Virus record (IMG/VR): IMGVR_UViG_3300035698_015263
Coordinates: 1 to 24,659 of that record
DNA length: 24,659 nt
DNA from: a virus
Strand: one strand, 5' to 3'
In this document: one piece after another, positions 4,254 to 24,659 of the stretch
Layout: each line of letters begins with the position of its first letter
How positions within the stretch are numbered: position 1 is the stretch's first letter
The notes under the pieces: model-generated
Seen by the model: only the letters and a program-made list of their open reading frames with translations
Databases searched by the model: none
Told to the model about the DNA's origin: nothing
Made by a program: the position numbers and the translations under genes

Positions 4254-4994
4254 TTATTTAGCATACCATCGGCTTGAATCATCAAGATACCAAGCATCGC
4301 AAAAGTCTTGCGGTGTCGGGTATGCCATTGTTTTTCCCTGAGAAACCCGCTTGTAATATAATTCAGCTATTCCTTTCTCAAATCGTTTGAAGAATTTAGG
4401 CCAGCGGTCACGGTACGCCTTGTGAATCTTTCCTGTTTTCTCTGAATGATAAGGGCATACAACACACCCTATCCGGTCAAAGCCTTCATCATACAAAGAC
4501 GGATAAGCCAAACCGTGTTCTTTGATAAAATCCCATATCTGCCATTCCTTCCAGTACAGGATGGGATAATACATAGTGCGACCCTTCCACTTATTTATCC
4601 GTGGTCGGCTTGCCCTTCGTGTGCTTTCCTCTGCCCTAATACCCAGAACTTGATCAGTGTCGGTTTTTTTAAGAAGTGTACAGCACCATCTAAGCCTATC
4701 ACTCGGTGGAACGTGTACTGACAGATCCCTCCAAAATGTTCTCTTATTTTTGTGAAATACACAATGCGGATAATTCTTGCGAATAAACCTGACAACCGCC
4801 GGTGCGTCTAATCCGGTAAACGAATATGATAGCGAATGCGGAAGACCCGATAGTTCCATTAATTTAGCTGTAACGATCGAATCTTTGCCACCTGAAAAGC
4901 CAACAGCTATATCAGCAGGCACATTTCCTTTAATGAATTTAATTGCTTCATCTGTCATAGCCTGAACAGAATCAAGCTTAGGAAAAAGTATCAT
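4254..4994 (-). CDS. PAPS/APS-reductase-family PP-loop enzyme
   Basis: A 246-residue protein of the adenine nucleotide alpha-hydrolase (PP-loop) superfamily. The ATP-pyrophosphatase loop VGFSGGKDS is at residues 31-39. GIRAEES (about 118-124) and ILYWKEWQIWDFI (about 145-157) are typical of phosphoadenosine-phosphosulfate-reductase-like proteins, including phage ones. Two Cys pairs, WCC (104-105) and GCVVC (177, 180), have the CC / CxxC arrangement of the [4Fe-4S] site of APS reductases. The C-terminal Glu-Cys-Gly-Leu-His catalytic tail of true PAPS reductase is absent, so simple sulfonucleotide reduction is doubtful. A sulfur-transfer or nucleic-acid-modification role (as for DndC) is an alternative. 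The ATG at 4994 is preferred because the stop of the preceding gene lies one base before it; a TTG at 5006 would directly abut the AAGGG sequence. Confidence 0.8.
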   Translation of the reverse strand: MILFPKLDSVQAMTDEAIKFIKGNVPADIAVGFSGGKDSIVTAKLMELSGLPHSLSYSFTGLDAPAVVRFIRKNYPHCVFHKNKRTFWRDLSVHVPPSDRLRWCCTLLKKTDTDQVLGIRAEESTRRASRPRINKWKGRTMYYPILYWKEWQIWDFIKEHGLAYPSLYDEGFDRIGCVVCPYHSEKTGKIHKAYRDRWPKFFKRFEKGIAELYYKRVSQGKTMAYPTPQDFCDAWYLDDSSRWYAK

Positions 4995-4995
4995 A

Positions 4996-5190
4996 TTAAT
5001 ATTCAACCCTTACATCAGTATGTTTGCCGCCGTCTTGCTTAACAAATACGCTATACTTGGTGAACGGGCGGAGCTTCGGATTTTCTATCCTGAAGACAAC
5101 CCAACTATCCCCGGCTGAATCTCTTATAATACCATCACCATATCCGCTATCAGCAAGTGTCCGCCATCGCTCATTTGTACTTGATCCCAT
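4996..5190 (-). CDS. Small basic protein of unknown function
   Basis: A 64-residue protein with a strong ribosome binding site (AAGGGGG, about 6 bases before the ATG). The sequence WVVFRIENPKLRP-TKYSVFVKQDGG suggests two or three beta strands with polar turns. No family is recognised. The stop is one base from the ATG of the PP-loop gene, so translation of the two is probably coupled. Confidence 0.6.
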   Translation of the reverse strand: MGSSTNERWRTLADSGYGDGIIRDSAGDSWVVFRIENPKLRPFTKYSVFVKQDGGKHTDVRVEY

Positions 5191-11567: not shown

Positions 11568-12052
11568 TGCAATTATTAATCAGACTAAAAGACAATCCAA
11601 GGGCGGTCAACAACTCAAAAAAGCGTGGTGATGTTGTTACCGTCTTTCCTATAGAACACAACCCATCACCAATGGAAAAACTACCTTATTTCTTAGTTGT
11701 AGACACAGACGAAAAGGATTGTTCAGAATATTTGGAATACAGGCTCGAAGAAGAGGCGTTGACTATAGGCATGTTAAAAAAACAATGGGATGTAGATAAA
11801 ACTTCATTGAGTGTCGTGTCCCCATATATGGATTTTATTCGCAAGCCGACCGAAGTAAAAACCTATGAAGATATAAATGGTGTCGGGATCGTTGTTTTGT
11901 CGGGATATCGGATTAGGCCGGTAGAGAAGAAATTCAGGCTCGATATTGATAAATTACTGGAAGTAGAGAAACAGACGCTTGATGTACTAACAAAAGCCGA
12001 TACGTTTATTGAACTACCTGTAAAGACCGACCAATGGATAAGCAATGTCTAA
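11567..12052 (+). CDS. Unknown protein between portal and beta-helix protein
   Basis: A 161-residue ORF with GAGGG 7 bases before the ATG. The N-terminus (MQLLIRLKDNPRAV) and YFLVVDTDEKDC suggest a small beta domain. The rest is charged with a helical C-terminus (KFRLDIDKLLEVEKQTLDVL). No family is recognised. Its last eight bases overlap the start of the beta-helix gene, suggesting that the two proteins are made and act together. Confidence 0.65.
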   Translation: MQLLIRLKDNPRAVNNSKKRGDVVTVFPIEHNPSPMEKLPYFLVVDTDEKDCSEYLEYRLEEEALTIGMLKKQWDVDKTSLSVVSPYMDFIRKPTEVKTYEDINGVGIVVLSGYRIRPVEKKFRLDIDKLLEVEKQTLDVLTKADTFIELPVKTDQWISNV

Positions 12053-13421
12053 ATATATAGTTTGTACAACAGCGCAATGGACTAACGACATAACCCAAGG
12101 CAGTTATGATGGCTATGTTGGTACAAATGGAACCTATGCAGACATTGCTGCATGGGAGTCTGCAAGAGATGGTTTAGACGCAGCAGATGAAGACAGTATA
12201 TTACATATATATGGAAGCCAGTCAACAACCGCTGTTTTATTCTTGAATGGTTGGACAGATAAAGATTCAACGCATTATATAGAGATTTGCAATAGCGACG
12301 ATGGAACCAAGCATGATGGAGTTGTTGATGGAGTTGGTGATACCCTTACATTCTCCGGCACTCCCGGTACATATCTATTCCAGATTTACGAAAATAGCGT
12401 AAAGATTCACGATTTAAGAATATTATATACAGGCACATCTGTTACTACACTATTTATTGCTTATTATACATCCGGCGAAACAGAAGTATATAATAATGTA
12501 GTCCACATGACAAACGGTGCGGCCAGCACCAGTATTCTAAGATGTACCGGGGCCAACACACTAAACGCTCATGACAACTTTTTAATAGCCGAAGATTTGG
12601 GAGATAGCGGGTATAGTGTTTATGCCGATTCCGGGCCTTTAACTTTTATAAATAATACCCTTGTATCAAAAAACGGACGAGGCATTTTTGTAGACACAGG
12701 GGTTACAAATAATATTAAAAATAACCTTAATTTTGCAGAATCGGTATGGTATCTTGGAGACTCGGAAGCCGACGCAACTTATGAGGGTGTGCCTTGTGCT
12801 TCTGGTGCGAGTTATGCACCCGATGGCGTAAATTGTGTTTATTCCATAGATGAGTCCGGTACAAGACTTTTTAATGATTTGACTGCCAACGAAGAGGATT
12901 TAACACTTAACTCTTCCGGTGCAGCATTTGCAAGCATATCTACTGCGGGTATTGGGCCGACATCAGATGCAGACATATCAACCACCGACATCTTAGGGAA
13001 CGCCCGATCAGGAACTAATTGTTGTATGGGGGCGTTTGAATATGTGGCATCCGGTGGAACAACAGTACAGATAGTGGCGGGGGCTATTGCCTATGCGGGG
13101 CAGGCGCTAAACGTAAATGCTAAAACGGTTGTTGAAATAGTGGCAGGAGCGATTTCATACGCAGGTCAGACATTCAAGGCAAGTCAGGCCGTGGCCATAG
13201 CAGCCGGAGCAATCAGCTATATTGGCAAGGCAGTTAAGGCGAACAGAGCAGTAGCCATTGCAGCGGGAGCCATTGCTTATGCAGGGCAAACACTCAAGTC
13301 TAATCTGATAATCAAAATAGGTGCCGGAGCCATAAACTATATTGGAAGATCGGTCAGCATTGCGGGTGATGTACTCGGTAGGGCAAAATGGCTATTATCT
13401 TTTGTGAGGAGGAGGAAATAA
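12045..13421 (+). CDS. Right-handed beta-helix protein with C-terminal tandem repeats
   Basis: A 458-residue protein. Residues 50-310 show short irregular Asn/Gly-rich strands of a parallel beta-helix (for example NNTLVSKNGRGIFVDTG). They end with DILGNARSGTNCCMGAFEYV (about 311-330), the closing motif of 'choice-of-anchor Q'/pectate-lyase-like helices found in phage spikes and surface proteins. Residues 340-442 hold five copies of a 20-22-residue repeat. The protein then ends in a basic tail (FVRRRK). A virion surface or carbohydrate-binding role is inferred. No catalytic residues can be assigned. It lies between portal and coat genes, not where a P22-type tailspike would be. Confidence 0.72.
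   Translation: MSKYIVCTTAQWTNDITQGSYDGYVGTNGTYADIAAWESARDGLDAADEDSILHIYGSQSTTAVLFLNGWTDKDSTHYIEICNSDDGTKHDGVVDGVGDTLTFSGTPGTYLFQIYENSVKIHDLRILYTGTSVTTLFIAYYTSGETEVYNNVVHMTNGAASTSILRCTGANTLNAHDNFLIAEDLGDSGYSVYADSGPLTFINNTLVSKNGRGIFVDTGVTNNIKNNLNFAESVWYLGDSEADATYEGVPCASGASYAPDGVNCVYSIDESGTRLFNDLTANEEDLTLNSSGAAFASISTAGIGPTSDADISTTDILGNARSGTNCCMGAFEYVASGGTTVQIVAGAIAYAGQALNVNAKTVVEIVAGAISYAGQTFKASQAVAIAAGAISYIGKAVKANRAVAIAAGAIAYAGQTLKSNLIIKIGAGAINYIGRSVSIAGDVLGRAKWLLSFVRRRK
13062..13368 (+). repeat. Five tandem coding repeats (AGAI-Y-G unit)
   Basis: Within the beta-helix gene the peptide unit (hydrophobic)4-AGAI-[ASN]-Y-[AI]-G-x4-(K/N) occurs five times. The starts of the AGAI blocks are 22, 20, 20 and 20 residues apart. 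The DNA copies have diverged (for example GCGGGGGCTATT, GCAGGAGCGATT, GCCGGAGCAATC), so the repeat is kept at protein level. Confidence 0.9.
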
Positions 13422-17949: not shown

Positions 17950-18019
17950 GTGACACTTATTGCCATAATCTGTCACATCTTTTAGCAATATTGTCATTAT
18001 TGGGCAATTTGTGTCACAT
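17950..18019. repeat. TGTCACAT repeats after the coat gene
   Basis: The non-coding stretch after the coat gene contains TGTCACAT twice (17971-17978 and 18012-18019, 41 bases apart), each following a TTATTG-containing half. There is an inverted copy, GTGACA, at 17950-17955 and a near copy, TGTCAT, at 17992-17997. The second copy lies just before the ribosome binding site of the next gene. It may be a regulatory binding site; the function is not known. Confidence 0.55.
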
Positions 18020-18034
18020 AGAAAGGAGAACAAA

Positions 18035-19954
18035 ATGAATAAATTTGCAAGAATCCTTTTGGCGTTGGCTTTAGCAGTTGCATTTGTTGTGCCGGTCAAT
18101 GCCGGAGTAAATGATCGATATTCAGGCATAGAGCTTGGTGATTCAGGAGACACCAGGAACGTTATTATCTGCCCTGAAATAGTTACATCTCCTGATACCC
18201 CTGTTTCCGGATTCAGCTATGTGTATGTTTCTGGAAACAATATCTATTTCCTTGATGATGCCGGAACCACTACAAGCATGATCGCCTCCGCTGGGGGTGG
18301 AGTTTCGAACCTGGATGAAGCCTATGATGGAGGTGGGGCCGGTGCAGGCGCCACGATTGCAGTTGATTCCGGTCCTGTTATTCTTACAGGAACCGCAGCA
18401 GCTACAAATACGCTTAATCTCACAGCCTCCGGATCAGGTCATGTTCTGGCCATAAGTAACTCTGGAACAGGCAAGGATATTTCCGGGACCGCAGGTTGGA
18501 ACATAACCAAAGCGGGCCTTGGGACGTTTGCCTCGATCGGAGCCTTTACCGGAGTCGGAGATATTGATTTAGACGATGGCGCTGGCGCTTCTCCGACCCT
18601 TACCTTCACAGATGTATCCGATGAAACCTCAGCTTTTAGCAAGGCGGATTCAGGCGTTTTGAGCCTTACGACCGAGGCGGCTGATGGGATGAAAGTTCTT
18701 GTTGGCAACCTATGGGTTGGTAACGGATCACCTGGCACAGCCTCAATGGACGGGGAGGACTTTTATTGTGAGGGCGCAAGTGAGTTTGATGGTGCAGCCG
18801 AATTTGATGGAGCCGTGAATATTGATGGCGCTGTTGACATGGACAGCACTATGTCACTTGCTGGAGTTCTTACCCTGGCAAACGGTCTTACCATTGATAA
18901 CGCTGTGAACAACTCCCTTGAATGGAACGAGAATTCCGAGGAAATAAAGTGGACATTTGCGAGTAATGCCCTGGATCTTGTTTCGACTTCCGGAGTGGTT
19001 GAGTTGTCAATTTTTGATAATTCAGCCGATGTGGTTATATCTCATGCCGCGAATGGTGCCGCTGATGATTTCTATATCAGCCAAACCGGGGCGCAAGATG
19101 CCTCTTTCTTCATTACCTCTGCCGGAACCGGTGCTGATGCTTTAAGTCTAAGCGCGACCGCTGGTGATATCGATGTAGATGCCACGTTGGGGGCTGTAAC
19201 GATTTCAGCCAATGCAGCCGGCAAAGATGTTAACATTGATTCTGTCCTTGGTTCGATTTTCATAGAGGGAGAAGAGGACGCCGCAAATGCAATCCACATT
19301 ATTTCCGATGGTGGAACGACAAGCGGTATTATTGTCCTGAATGATACAGGGACGGGTGACGAATCTATTTTGCTTGATTCTGACGTTGGCGGTATAACCG
19401 TTAATGCAAACGCAGGTTCAATAGATATCGAAGCTGTTGGCGGTACAGCCGGAGACGTTGGCATAAGTGCCGGTGATGATATGGGTATCACGGTTGCCGG
19501 AGACTTCACCATTACCGTGTCTGGTACGACCAGTTTAGCCGGTGGATCGATTACCAGTGTGCTTGAATCAGCTGCCGCTCTTGCAGCAATCTATACTGTA
19601 ACGACTGGAGATTCTGGCAGGACATTTTATTTTGGGAATGCTGCCGAGTTTGACATTGAGCTCCCGGCATTATCAACCGTGTCTTCAGGAACTTCTTATC
19701 GGTTTGTCTGTACCGCTGCCCCTTCTGGTGTTGATTATACAATCATAACCGGCAACTCTCTTGAGAACTTAATATATGGGTCGGTTGTCGTAGACGGTGC
19801 TGCTATTCCCGGTGCAGCCGCAGATACAATCACATTTACAGCTTCCGCAGCAGCGGTGGGCGATTGGGTGGATGTGCGTTCGGATGGCACAAACTGGTAT
19901 GTTTCAGGGATTGGAGAGGCCGCAACGGCCATAACCTTGACGCAGGCTGACTAA
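18035..19954 (+). CDS. Large beta-repeat fibre-like protein with signal peptide
   Basis: A 639-residue protein. The ATG at 18035 is chosen (AAAGGAGAACAAA before it). The N-terminus is a clear Sec signal peptide: Lys/Arg at residues 3 and 6, a hydrophobic core ILLALALAVAFVVP and a VNA cleavage site after residue 23. The body is Gly/Ala/Asp-rich and low in aromatic residues, with short hydrophobic repeats. Seven six-residue units (SEFDGA, AEFDGA, VNIDGA, ...) lie at residues 249-290, as in fibrous beta-helical stalks. The C-terminal 125 residues (TFYFGNAAEFDIELP to DVRSDGTNWYVSG) resemble the cap domain of phage structural proteins. It is placed between the coat and gp4-like genes. A head decoration or fibre role is inferred. 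Confidence 0.75.
   Translation: MNKFARILLALALAVAFVVPVNAGVNDRYSGIELGDSGDTRNVIICPEIVTSPDTPVSGFSYVYVSGNNIYFLDDAGTTTSMIASAGGGVSNLDEAYDGGGAGAGATIAVDSGPVILTGTAAATNTLNLTASGSGHVLAISNSGTGKDISGTAGWNITKAGLGTFASIGAFTGVGDIDLDDGAGASPTLTFTDVSDETSAFSKADSGVLSLTTEAADGMKVLVGNLWVGNGSPGTASMDGEDFYCEGASEFDGAAEFDGAVNIDGAVDMDSTMSLAGVLTLANGLTIDNAVNNSLEWNENSEEIKWTFASNALDLVSTSGVVELSIFDNSADVVISHAANGAADDFYISQTGAQDASFFITSAGTGADALSLSATAGDIDVDATLGAVTISANAAGKDVNIDSVLGSIFIEGEEDAANAIHIISDGGTTSGIIVLNDTGTGDESILLDSDVGGITVNANAGSIDIEAVGGTAGDVGISAGDDMGITVAGDFTITVSGTTSLAGGSITSVLESAAALAAIYTVTTGDSGRTFYFGNAAEFDIELPALSTVSSGTSYRFVCTAAPSGVDYTIITGNSLENLIYGSVVVDGAAIPGAAADTITFTASAAAVGDWVDVRSDGTNWYVSGIGEAATAITLTQAD
18779..18904 (+). repeat. Seven hexapeptide coding repeats
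   Basis: Consecutive units SEFDGA, AEFDGA, VNIDGA, VDMDST, MSLAGV, LTLANG, LTIDNA within the fibre-like protein. Pairs of small residues alternate with a hydrophobic residue at the third position, which suggests a beta-solenoid or triple-stranded beta-helix rung. The unit is 18 bases. Confidence 0.8.
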
Positions 19955-20319: not shown

Positions 20320-21051
20320 ATGACAGTTGCCGTTAGATTGGTCAGTGAGATAGTCGCGGGCGCATTTAAAAAGTTGGGTGTGTATGCACCAGGGGAAACC
20401 CTATCAACCGATGATACGGCTACGGGCCTTGAGGCGTTTGTGGACCTTCTGTCTGAGCTATCAATCGATGGAATGATAATCCCTGCATATACCGGGGTGG
20501 ACATTACACTTGTTGTGGATCAGAATTCCTATACGATTGGAGAAAACGGATCACCCGACAAGGACACCACTCGGCCAGAAAGCATAGAGGGAGCGTTTGT
20601 AAGGGTGAGCGATATTGACTTTCCCGTTCAGATTATATCGCGGGAGGAGTACAATGCTATTTCAAACAAATCCGCCGGCGGTACCAGGCCCGAAAAGTTA
20701 TGGTACAATCCTACGGTGCCGAACGGGACCATTTATTTATGGCCGGCCACTGCTTCAACCGACACGCTCTATATTTACACTCCGGACATTTTTGTCGATA
20801 CAGCCACATTAACGATGGATGCGATGATTGCTCTTGGCATTCCCAGGCCGTATCATAATCCGCTTAAATTCCTGCTTGCAATAGATCTCGCGCCTGAACT
20901 CGGCATTGAGCCTTCTGTAATAGTTGTCAGCAGGGCAAATATTGGACTTGAGCGAATCCGGAGCGCGAATGCTGCAAACAGTTTTAAACCGGCGGAGGTT
21001 GGCGTTGCTCCAGCAGCAGGTCATAATCAAGATCTGATAAGGTACGGATAA
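20320..21051 (+). CDS. P22 gp4-like tail accessory (packaged-DNA stabilisation) protein
   Basis: A 243-residue protein. Conserved pieces of the P22 tail-accessory family gp4 are visible: AFKKLGVYAPGETLS (residues 15-29), LSELSIDGMIIPAY, NSYTIGENGSPDKDTTRPESI (about 65-85), PVQIISREEYNAISNK, GTIYLWPATAS and a C-terminal helix with KFLLAIDLAPELGI. In P22 gp4 binds the portal first after packaging and closes the head. This protein is longer than P22 gp4 (about 166 residues). GAGGAG precedes the ATG, and the stop overlaps the next gene (TAATG). Confidence 0.88.
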   Translation: MTVAVRLVSEIVAGAFKKLGVYAPGETLSTDDTATGLEAFVDLLSELSIDGMIIPAYTGVDITLVVDQNSYTIGENGSPDKDTTRPESIEGAFVRVSDIDFPVQIISREEYNAISNKSAGGTRPEKLWYNPTVPNGTIYLWPATASTDTLYIYTPDIFVDTATLTMDAMIALGIPRPYHNPLKFLLAIDLAPELGIEPSVIVVSRANIGLERIRSANAANSFKPAEVGVAPAAGHNQDLIRYG

Positions 21052-23291
21052 TGGCACATAAAAGAATTGAAATCCCTCTTGTTGGTGGGCAGTATATAGG
21101 CAGGTCCACGGATGTGGATGCCCAGGAGTGCATAAATCTATATCCCGATGCCAGCGCTAAAGGTGGAAGATCACCGGTCCTTCAACCCGTTCCTGGGCAA
21201 ACAGAGTGGGGCGATTCTGGAAGCTCAGGAGAGGTAAGGGGGTGTTTCAAGTTTTCTGCTACAGTTATGTATGCCGTTATTGGAAATACGGTTTACAAGT
21301 TTGCTACAGCCGGAACGTCCACGGCGCTTTCTACCATACTGGATGGTTCTACAGGTCCGGTGCAGATGGTCAGTAATGACACACAGGTTATGATTCTCGA
21401 TCTTACTGATTTTGCTGGATACGTTATCGAAAATGACGTTGTTACGGCAATTAATAGCACCTGGTCGACACAAAATGTTGAAACAATGCTCACCGAGGCC
21501 GGGACCGCAGCAATCGTTTCCGGAAGTCTTGAAGTGGGGCATTATTACAAAATCCTTGCTCAATCAGCAGCTAATTTCGTTGCTGATGGTGCAGCCAATA
21601 ACAATGTTGGCACTTATTTCATGGCAGACGATACAACCGTTACGCTTACAGCCAATGATAACGTGTCAGAAATAACCTCAAAACTGGTCGATCCTCAATC
21701 TACCGTAACAGAGAGCAGTACCTCTATTTCATTTGCAGACACATATTGCTCAGATATCCTCTTTGGATTTAAGGATTATGGCGCCGCTTATTTTGGAGAC
21801 GTAAAACATAGGTTTGCCTTTAATCTGTCTGCCTGGTCCGGAACTCAGTTTATCGGTGAAAACATAATATTGTGGGCGCTCAAAGATTATGTTGAAAACA
21901 CGGGACTTGGTGTTGCAATAAGTGGTACAGAGTTTGGGATCAGTATGACGATAGACGATGGAACTAATCCTCATCTTAGCCTTTATAAAAAATGGGGGGG
22001 GTCATTGCTTAATGATGTGGTTGAAATAGCTTTAGCGACAGATTATTATATTGAGATCGAGAGGGCCAGTGATGCGCTTACAGCAAAGATATATACCGAT
22101 GAAGCATTCACAACCTTGCTATCCGGTGGAAGCCTGGCATTAGATTTAACCACTACACACTCAGCAACATACAGATACTTTTTCCCAATTTCTACTGACA
22201 GGTCCGGTAATGCCCATACAGAAAAAGCCTCCGGCGTTATATCAGATTTAAAATTTCACGACACTGATTTTATAAAAGGAAGCAGCCTAACCTACCAGGA
22301 TGGTTATGCGATTGTTTCAAATGATGATTCTAAACTATTTAATATCTCAACCCTGGATACAGCTTCGGTTGCCGCATATAACGCCTCTGACTTTACCAGA
22401 TGGGCAACCCTGGACTATGAGAGCGTTGATGGTCTTAGCAGCCCGATAAAAGCCATTATCTCAGACCACAGCGAATTGCTTGCGTTCGGTGAGGGACGGA
22501 TCAATTATTATTCGAATTCAGGCAATGTGGATTTTCCTTTCACAAAAACCCGAAATATTAATACAGAAGTCGGCCTTGGTGGCACAGCAGCATGTGTTGT
22601 GCAAATCGAAAACTCTTTGCTCTGGTTAGATGATGATTATAATGTCCGAATGGCCGAGGGATATAGGCCAGTAATAGTCTCAACCCCGGAAATCTCGTAC
22701 AATATTCAGCAAATGTCGGACGTTTCAGACGCGATTGCCTTTGGGTATTACTATGAAGGCCATGCGTTTTACGTCATTACATTTCCAACTGCGGATAAAA
22801 CATACTGTTACGATCTTCTCACAAGGGAGTGGCATTTAAGGTCTTCCGGTGTTGCTGGTGGTCGCTGGATACCTAATTGCTATTGCAACTTTGGAGGAAA
22901 GCACCTGGTCGGTGCATATAATGATGGTGTCCTATATGAGCTTGATCACACCGTTTTTACAGAGGACGGTGCTACCTTTAGTGCGACACGGACAACAAGG
23001 CATATAGACACATTGGGCCGCCTTATGATTTTTCACAGGCTGGAGTTGATTGCAAAGACCGGATCCGTGACGTCCGGAACTCCAGAGGTTATTTTAACTT
23101 GGTCTGATGATGGAGGTTATACCTGGTCGAATGAACATACGGGAAGCCTCGGAACAACCGGGGCATACGGGCAGAGAATTGTTTGGCGAAGGCTGGGACG
23201 ATCAAGAGACAGAATTTTCAGGTTTAAAATTACAGACGCAGTTGACAGGGTTTTGATATCCCTGTTCGCTGACGTCACATATGGTAAATAA
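21051..23291 (+). CDS. P22 gp10-like packaged-DNA stabilisation protein with inserted lectin-like domain
   Basis: A 746-residue hub protein; P22 gp10 has about 472. The N-terminus (RIEIPLVGGQYIGRSTDVDAQ, first 25 residues) and the C-terminal 330 residues (SLTYQDGYAIVSNDDSKLF, then ISDHSELLAFGEGRINYYS, then VGLGGTA and WRRLGRSRDRIFRF at the end) match the gp10 family, which binds gp4 and seals the portal. Between residues about 137 and 408 lies an insertion. It has a YKI-x-ANF-x-DGA module (152-205) and a domain (222-404) with a concanavalin/LamG-like look, containing YYIEIERASDALTAKIY. The insertion may add a surface-binding function to the tail. TAATG overlap with gp4. Confidence 0.9.
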   Translation: MAHKRIEIPLVGGQYIGRSTDVDAQECINLYPDASAKGGRSPVLQPVPGQTEWGDSGSSGEVRGCFKFSATVMYAVIGNTVYKFATAGTSTALSTILDGSTGPVQMVSNDTQVMILDLTDFAGYVIENDVVTAINSTWSTQNVETMLTEAGTAAIVSGSLEVGHYYKILAQSAANFVADGAANNNVGTYFMADDTTVTLTANDNVSEITSKLVDPQSTVTESSTSISFADTYCSDILFGFKDYGAAYFGDVKHRFAFNLSAWSGTQFIGENIILWALKDYVENTGLGVAISGTEFGISMTIDDGTNPHLSLYKKWGGSLLNDVVEIALATDYYIEIERASDALTAKIYTDEAFTTLLSGGSLALDLTTTHSATYRYFFPISTDRSGNAHTEKASGVISDLKFHDTDFIKGSSLTYQDGYAIVSNDDSKLFNISTLDTASVAAYNASDFTRWATLDYESVDGLSSPIKAIISDHSELLAFGEGRINYYSNSGNVDFPFTKTRNINTEVGLGGTAACVVQIENSLLWLDDDYNVRMAEGYRPVIVSTPEISYNIQQMSDVSDAIAFGYYYEGHAFYVITFPTADKTYCYDLLTREWHLRSSGVAGGRWIPNCYCNFGGKHLVGAYNDGVLYELDHTVFTEDGATFSATRTTRHIDTLGRLMIFHRLELIAKTGSVTSGTPEVILTWSDDGGYTWSNEHTGSLGTTGAYGQRIVWRRLGRSRDRIFRFKITDAVDRVLISLFADVTYGK

Positions 23292-23293
23292 TT

Positions 23294-24659
23294 ATGGGAT
23301 GGCCACAGGAACCAATCACGGATCCACGGAGCGGACGGTTAACGCCGAACTGGGAAAGGTATTTTAATAATGAACTCCAGCCGGTCATTGATGCAAGTCT
23401 TTCTCCGCTCTCTTCTGACGGGTCACTGTTCATACCGGCACCGAATATGGATCACGGTGCTCTTTATGGTTTAGAGTACGATAAACACCTTCAATATTTG
23501 CTTACTGCAGGTACCCGGGCCGGTGCAACTTCCCAGGCACAGGTCTTCACTTTAGGCATTACCGCTTCTGGCGATATTATCACGACAGAAGATGTGAAAG
23601 TAGGTGATGGAAAATATATTGGCAGTACTACAACTCCAACAGCTATTCAGATTGCAGCGAATGGTGATATTACTTTATTAGAAGATCTTATAATTGGTGA
23701 TGGTAAAACTATTGGTCAAGCAGCAGGACCATTATTGACCTTTGATAATACGAATAATAGACTAAATCTCACAGGTGCAGGTTATTATGTAGATGGTAGT
23801 GCTGGTGGTGATTTTGTTACAGATGGTGGGTTTGATGCGGTTACCGAGGGGGCCGCATTATCATCGGGGCTTTTCACGGTTGGGAATTGCTATAAGATTG
23901 CAACGCATGCCGATGCTGATTTTACTACCGTTGGCGCTCCCGATTCGGTGGTAGGGACATACTTTAATGCCACGGCGACAGGTGCAGGATTGCTTGACGC
24001 TGGCGACACGGTGCTTCCGATTACGTTTACAAGCTGGACAGAAGGAACGGGGTGGGCACCACAGGCTACAGCGGGTGCACTTACCGGCAAAGTGCAGAAG
24101 GTTGCTGGATCGGCAAGCTATTTAACGCAAAGTGGTGTTTTGACCGCCGGTATAAATTATAGGGGTATATTTACATCAGTGGTTAGCGCTGTGGGTGGTC
24201 ATTATTTACTGTTTGGGACAGCAGCGCGCGGAGAGATCCGTACCGCTTCTGGAACTTATACAGAAAATGTTACTGCGGATAATACAAGCATGCGGGTTGC
24301 TGCTGATGGGGCTTTCGCAGGGACAATTGATGCATTATCAGTAAAAGCTGTTGGGATAAATCTGACCTCTGATGGAAATGTTGTAATATCTGGTAAGGTT
24401 TCTGTTGGTGATGCAATAATAGTACTAGATTCTATATCTGTAGGAACAGCTAATCCAGCAGCAGGATTTAGCGGCACTGGAGACATTTATGCAACAAGCG
24501 GTATAAAGGCGATGGAAGGCCTGTACTCCGAGGCCGTGGCTTATGGTGCAGGTTTAGAGGTTGCAGATAATTCTCTGGTAGTTACTCACACAGGGACAGG
24601 TGCAACTTTAACAGCAGCCACGCAATTAATCACAGATGCAGGTGGGAGTTTTGACAGTA
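23294..24659 (+). CDS. Tail fibre protein, 3' end missing
   Basis: The frame starts at ATG 23294, two bases after the stop of the gp10-like gene, and stays open to the end of the window (455 codons); the 3' end is beyond it. The N-terminus (MGWPQEPITDPRSGRLTPN) and DHGALYGLEYDKHLQYLL (about residues 55-72) are typical of phage tail fibres. Then come Gly-rich repeats (EDVKVGDGKYIG and EDLIIGDGKTIG). A YKI/DADF/GTYF module (residues about 187-235) and a beta-sandwich with EGTGW and DALSVKAV follow. The first part should attach to the tail and the distal part should bind the host surface. No strong ribosome binding site is seen, so translation is probably coupled. Confidence 0.8.
   Translation, partial: MGWPQEPITDPRSGRLTPNWERYFNNELQPVIDASLSPLSSDGSLFIPAPNMDHGALYGLEYDKHLQYLLTAGTRAGATSQAQVFTLGITASGDIITTEDVKVGDGKYIGSTTTPTAIQIAANGDITLLEDLIIGDGKTIGQAAGPLLTFDNTNNRLNLTGAGYYVDGSAGGDFVTDGGFDAVTEGAALSSGLFTVGNCYKIATHADADFTTVGAPDSVVGTYFNATATGAGLLDAGDTVLPITFTSWTEGTGWAPQATAGALTGKVQKVAGSASYLTQSGVLTAGINYRGIFTSVVSAVGGHYLLFGTAARGEIRTASGTYTENVTADNTSMRVAADGAFAGTIDALSVKAVGINLTSDGNVVISGKVSVGDAIIVLDSISVGTANPAAGFSGTGDIYATSGIKAMEGLYSEAVAYGAGLEVADNSLVVTHTGTGATLTAATQLITDAGGSFDS

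Follow-up and report, generated by a model that had tools for sequence, protein, structure and literature searches.

In a P22-like podovirus, the gp10-type tail hub appears to have acquired a lectin-like nozzle domain. Six copies would encircle the tip of the tail, where they probably attach to surface glycans. Few podovirus tail proteins are as well conserved as gp10-type hubs, which are generally regarded as internal plugs. The hub, the edge at which the insertion lies and the fold of the inserted domain are each already known, but their combination is absent from the homologues that we examined and from the open-access literature searched; in a full-text search covering mostly open-access journals, no paper described a gp10-type or nozzle protein with a lectin. 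The gene lies in a record of 24,659 bases of virus DNA, which we refer to as the window (Table 1).

Table 1. Coordinates of the hub gene, its parts and the flanking genes in the window; residue numbers are those of the encoded proteins.
Feature	Position	Strand	Basis
Adaptor gene (gp4 / SU10-adaptor type), directly upstream, 1-base overlap with hub start	20320..21051	+	PF24175 SU10_adaptor, 27.6 bits (cut-off 27)
Tail hub / nozzle gene, P22 gp10 (Hc3) family, 746 aa	21051..23291	+	phrog_578 profile and fold
Hub core before the insertion (N-terminal), residues 1-137: platform strands, propeller blades 1 and 2	21051..21461	+	Homologue alignment; pLDDT mostly >80
Insertion, residues 138-403, ~266 extra residues at one point	21462..22259	+	Homologue alignments
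Module 1 of insertion, residues 152-210, mobile YxI..(G)xxDFxxxGAxxxxVGTxF module	21504..21680	+	Match to next gene; pattern search
Module 2 of insertion, residues 206-403, predicted ConA-like beta-sandwich	21666..22259	+	Predicted structure; Foldseek/VIA; relatives L056-L061 and in L189-L200
Hub core after the insertion (C-terminal), residues 404-746: last five blades, platform, conserved DDGGYTWSNEH	22260..23288	+	phrog_578 match to residues 390-742; pLDDT mostly >85
Next gene, putative tail fibre, truncated by record end; module 1 at its residues 188-246	23294..24658	+	ORF list; module match

The genes upstream of the hub follow the order terminase, P22-type portal, scaffold, P22-type coat and SU10/gp4-type adaptor, with family profile matches to P22_portal, P22_CoatProtein and SU10_adaptor arranged as is usual for gp10-type hubs. 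Because the hub gene comes after this series, we assign the region to a P22-like podovirus structural module. The gene immediately downstream of the hub has no family match in PHROGs or Pfam, and neither does a repetitive 647-aa ORF (18011-19954) between the coat and adaptor genes, which has a signal-peptide-like start (MNKFARILLALALAVAFVVPVNAG). A 458-aa ORF (12045-13421) between the portal and coat genes gives a weak NosD-like match (E 0.008) that falls below the cut-off. Elsewhere in the window there is a phosphoadenosine phosphosulfate reductase-like gene (4254-5006; phrog_424, E 1.5e-39) on the minus strand, opposite to the structural genes, and a DNA methyltransferase-like gene (3-956; phrog_67, E 5e-66) that is truncated by the start of the record.

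Sequence profiles and structural models together predict that the hub gene product is a gp10-type hub with a complete platform and a seven-bladed beta-propeller, interrupted after its second blade. The 746-aa ORF matches phrog_578 ('head closure Hc3'; E 3.8e-89) and solved chains of the gp10 family, in agreement with the initial annotation, which had assigned both ends of the protein to the P22 gp10 family. Matches also extend to the hubs solved for the cyanophages Pan3 and Pam1, and a profile built from 37 hub homologues identifies P22 gp10 (E 5e-25) and Sf6 gp8; the Pfam model PF11134 has no match in the hub at E 0.001. The nearest homologues share only about 38% identity with it, and a scan of bacterial and archaeal genomes found no hub relatives. 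Conservation within the hub family is highest at SDDGGYTWSNEH (residues 685-696), which lies in the C-terminal part of the protein (within 22260-23291) and includes an Asp-box-like motif (SxDGGxTW).

The core and the insertion were modelled separately. In the model of the full-length hub the core is confident (pLDDT mostly >85) and superposes on P22 gp10 (8eap_D) with a VIA Z of 38.8 over 436 of 471 residues (rmsd 2.1), and seven sets of four strands can be counted in the propeller. The hubs of P22 (gp10), Sf6 (gp8), Pam1 and Pan3 are alike across the whole core (Z 35-39) and their genes share the order of adaptor followed by hub, but these proteins are 442-472 aa long and lack the inserted domain that the 746-aa hub carries; at the insertion point, which corresponds to a loop at about residues 126-137 of P22 gp10, that protein has just a few extra residues.

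The limits of the insertion are given by homologue alignments, in which the hub core aligns with proteins from virus contigs over its entire length and residues 138-403 are without counterpart. Residues D404-F407 (DTDF) match the conserved core motif DxDF, and the insert is therefore placed at about residues 138-403, within a few residues of the limits (137-408) first proposed. The earlier estimate of about 270 inserted residues is likewise upheld. Nearly all homologues are about 450-500 aa long and lack the segment; in the virus collection, 55 loci were compared, and the majority of their hub ORFs measure 450-500 aa and have fewer than 15 residues inserted here. Since the core aligns throughout and superposes on 8eap_D while the segment, absent from most homologues, has no counterpart, the insert is not part of the gp10 core fold. 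As to whether it is unique or recurs in other hubs, the two parts of the question have different answers: this lectin-like domain is present in no other hub within the sets searched, whereas the edge itself is reused for unrelated inserts.

The insertion place is not new, and the model puts it at the edge of the second blade, at or near known nozzle and Ig insertion places. The modelled chain first forms platform strands and two blades of four strands each, exits at residue 138, re-enters at 404 and continues through five more blades before returning to the platform, with blades numbered from the secondary structure and strand count of the model and compared with published topologies. By strand order this is at or near the place used in SU10, T7 and crAss001: the SU10 nozzle domains (PMC9509320) and crAss001 IG1 (PMC10172136) lie between blades 2 and 3 and the T7 gp12 nozzle tip is reached from a loop of blade 3 (PMC6702177), an equivalence that we give to within one blade edge because numbering conventions differ between papers. 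The SU10 nozzle (7z4b), T7 gp12 (6r21) and crAss001 muzzle gp44 (7qol) resemble the hub in having a propeller with domains at the second or third blade edge (VIA Z of 25.6, 19.0 and 27.2, respectively), but instead of a ConA-like domain they have Ig-like domains, a beta-barrel tip or the crass fold inserted there. Sequence similarity is not reported between the SU10 and T7 nozzles.

Among the gp10 homologues, unrelated inserts at the same edge are present in L031/L032/L037 and in L035 (about 100 aa) and in the hubs of L007 and L008 (78 aa); for the insert of L031 there is a likeness to Flagellin_IN (E 1.9e-4) that narrowly misses the curated cut-off. Other hubs are altered elsewhere. A gp10-family hub in L029 (3385-5163) has an 89-residue insert near the position of residue 455 in the window hub, and the 995-residue hub of L050 (3588-6572) is enlarged around its first blade by long inserts and gives weak matches to BNR/Asp-box. 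In four loci (L007:3488-6299, L008:4254-7065, L049:3661-8544 and L055:4158-7814) the hub is split into two ORFs just before the DGGYTWSNE motif; a glycosyltransferase-2-like ORF (E 9e-8) lies between the two in L007, and the second ORF of L055 has about 560 new residues.

The insertion is composed of two modules. The shorter of these, module 1, shares 45% identity over 58 residues with the downstream putative fibre gene (phmmer against the window's own ORFs, E 4.3e-6), and the initial suggestion that a module is common to the hub insert and the next gene is well founded. A pattern search of virus contigs recovered it from at least 120 stretches of virus DNA, and among the matches listed there are 125 copies (consensus YTIVTVGTTDFTLIGAANNNVGTIFTA), 108 of which sit in ORFs of more than 300 codons. 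On these sequence grounds module 1 is a very common mobile piece that is not special to this phage; it has no confident structure in the insert model.

Relatives of module 2 are harder to find. The insert gave no usable match in Pfam, PHROGs, PDB sequences or isolated phages (tblastn), and a peptide-pattern search of virus contigs with the insert alone found nothing. We sought relatives with a degenerate DNA motif derived from the module 2 stretch YY-x-[LIV]-x-[LIV]-x-R...LT..IY[ST]D, which identified six virus contigs (L056-L061) whose proteins align with the domain from end to end at 21-44 bits in phmmer. When the motif region is removed, four of the six still align, two of them at 15-16 bits compared with a maximum of 10.9 in 200 shuffles. 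A looser motif added nine further contigs (in L189-L200), giving a family of 15, none of which has the domain within a hub gene. The nearest relative, L058, has no match in isolated phages. At four of the contigs, namely L059 and three larger loci (L062, L063 and L065), a small separate gene starts with the domain, and the same loci also hold tape-measure, tail-fibre, major-head or portal genes. As judged by these alignments, module 2 belongs to a domain family that is portable and carries no annotation.

Residues 206-403 are predicted to form a concanavalin-A-like domain. When the alignment lacked the relatives of the insert, the full-length model did not fold this segment confidently, whereas a model of the insert that included them (10 sequences; mean pLDDT 62.6) has a beta-sandwich at hub residues 210-403, with pLDDT of about 70-90 over most of it. 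The best Foldseek matches in the PDB are the L-type lectins VIP36 and ERGIC-53 followed by legume lectins (E 2e-6 to 4e-5), and then SO2946 and PL7 alginate lyases; VIA gives Z of 13-13.9 over 166-193 residues to L-type lectins and their relatives, and in a library of viral structures an SO2946-like protein ranks first and a protein with a ConA-like annotation fifth. The concanavalin/LamG-like strand pattern initially read from the sequence is therefore recovered as a predicted ConA/LamG-like sandwich, and the six virus proteins found by motif also speak for it. The likeness to the ConA-like lectin / LamG superfamily (ERGIC-53, VIP36, legume lectins, SO2946) is one of fold, as identity to the solved lectins is only 6-17%, and the insert differs from them in lying inside a phage tail hub and in having no recognised sugar- or metal-binding site.

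What the domain does can be read in several ways. The main alternative to glycan binding is a purely structural role in the nozzle or as a spacer, in which the domain would make the tail tip longer or more stable or serve as a dock for the next fibre protein; we regard this role as somewhat unlikely. The domain would then resemble the Ig-like nozzle domains at the same or a neighbouring edge, which appear to be structural in SU10 and crAss001, and SU10 nozzle domain 4 touches the dock loop of the short tail fibre; the non-lectin inserts that other gp10 relatives have at this edge and the lack of identified binding residues in the insert also fit. Glycan binding is nonetheless favoured by the folds closest to the insert, which are sugar-binding or sugar-cleaving, and by the occurrence of its relatives as separate late genes in unrelated phages, as expected of an appendage or binding module. 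The ConA-like fold also serves enzymes and protein-protein contacts, and the PL7 alginate lyases among the structural matches (Z 12.4-12.8) raise the question of a polysaccharide lyase or other depolymerase of PL7 or GH16 type; the insert lacks the PL7 motifs tested (QIH, RxExR, YxKxGxYxQ) and the GH16 motif ExDx(x)E, and we consider such an activity very improbable.

The fusion is known from a single record, and GC content is 0.41 in the ConA part compared with 0.45-0.47 in the core, as might be seen if metagenome misassembly had joined the insert into the hub gene. The reading frame is, however, open across both joints, the domain ends agree with the core motif and with the boundary of the family, GC at third codon positions (0.36) lies between that of the core (0.40-0.42) and that of the next gene (0.33), and the insert shares a module with the gene that follows on this contig, so that an artefact of this kind is scarcely to be expected.

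We therefore favour a hub with an acquired lectin-like nozzle domain. As the hub or nozzle of a P22-like podovirus tail the protein would be a hexamer, and by analogy with solved nozzles the insert would lie on the outer, cell-facing side of the tail, where the six inserts of a virion would surround the site of the needle or fibre. The domain probably binds a polysaccharide or other surface glycan during adsorption, as suggested by its fold, its recurrence as separate late genes in other phages and the module held in common with the next gene, and its role may be to keep the tip of the tail on the envelope or to contribute to the opening of the channel. Recombination with genes of tail-fibre type is the most likely source of both modules of the insert.

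A bolder proposal is that the tail hub is itself a receptor-binding protein, whose six lectin domains recognise glycans of the host and relay the binding signal straight to the channel gate, and that the blade-2 edge is a general socket for surface-binding domains. Unrelated inserts share this edge in other environmental hubs and suggest a reusable socket, but we hold the proposal as a whole to be rather doubtful. With the hub seen simply as carrying a lectin-like nozzle domain, the placement of a sugar-binding-type domain in the loop that holds tail-tip domains indicates that the hub itself, and not only the fibres, may make contact with the host cell. Built into the propeller in this way, a lectin-type domain would tie surface recognition directly to the DNA gate.
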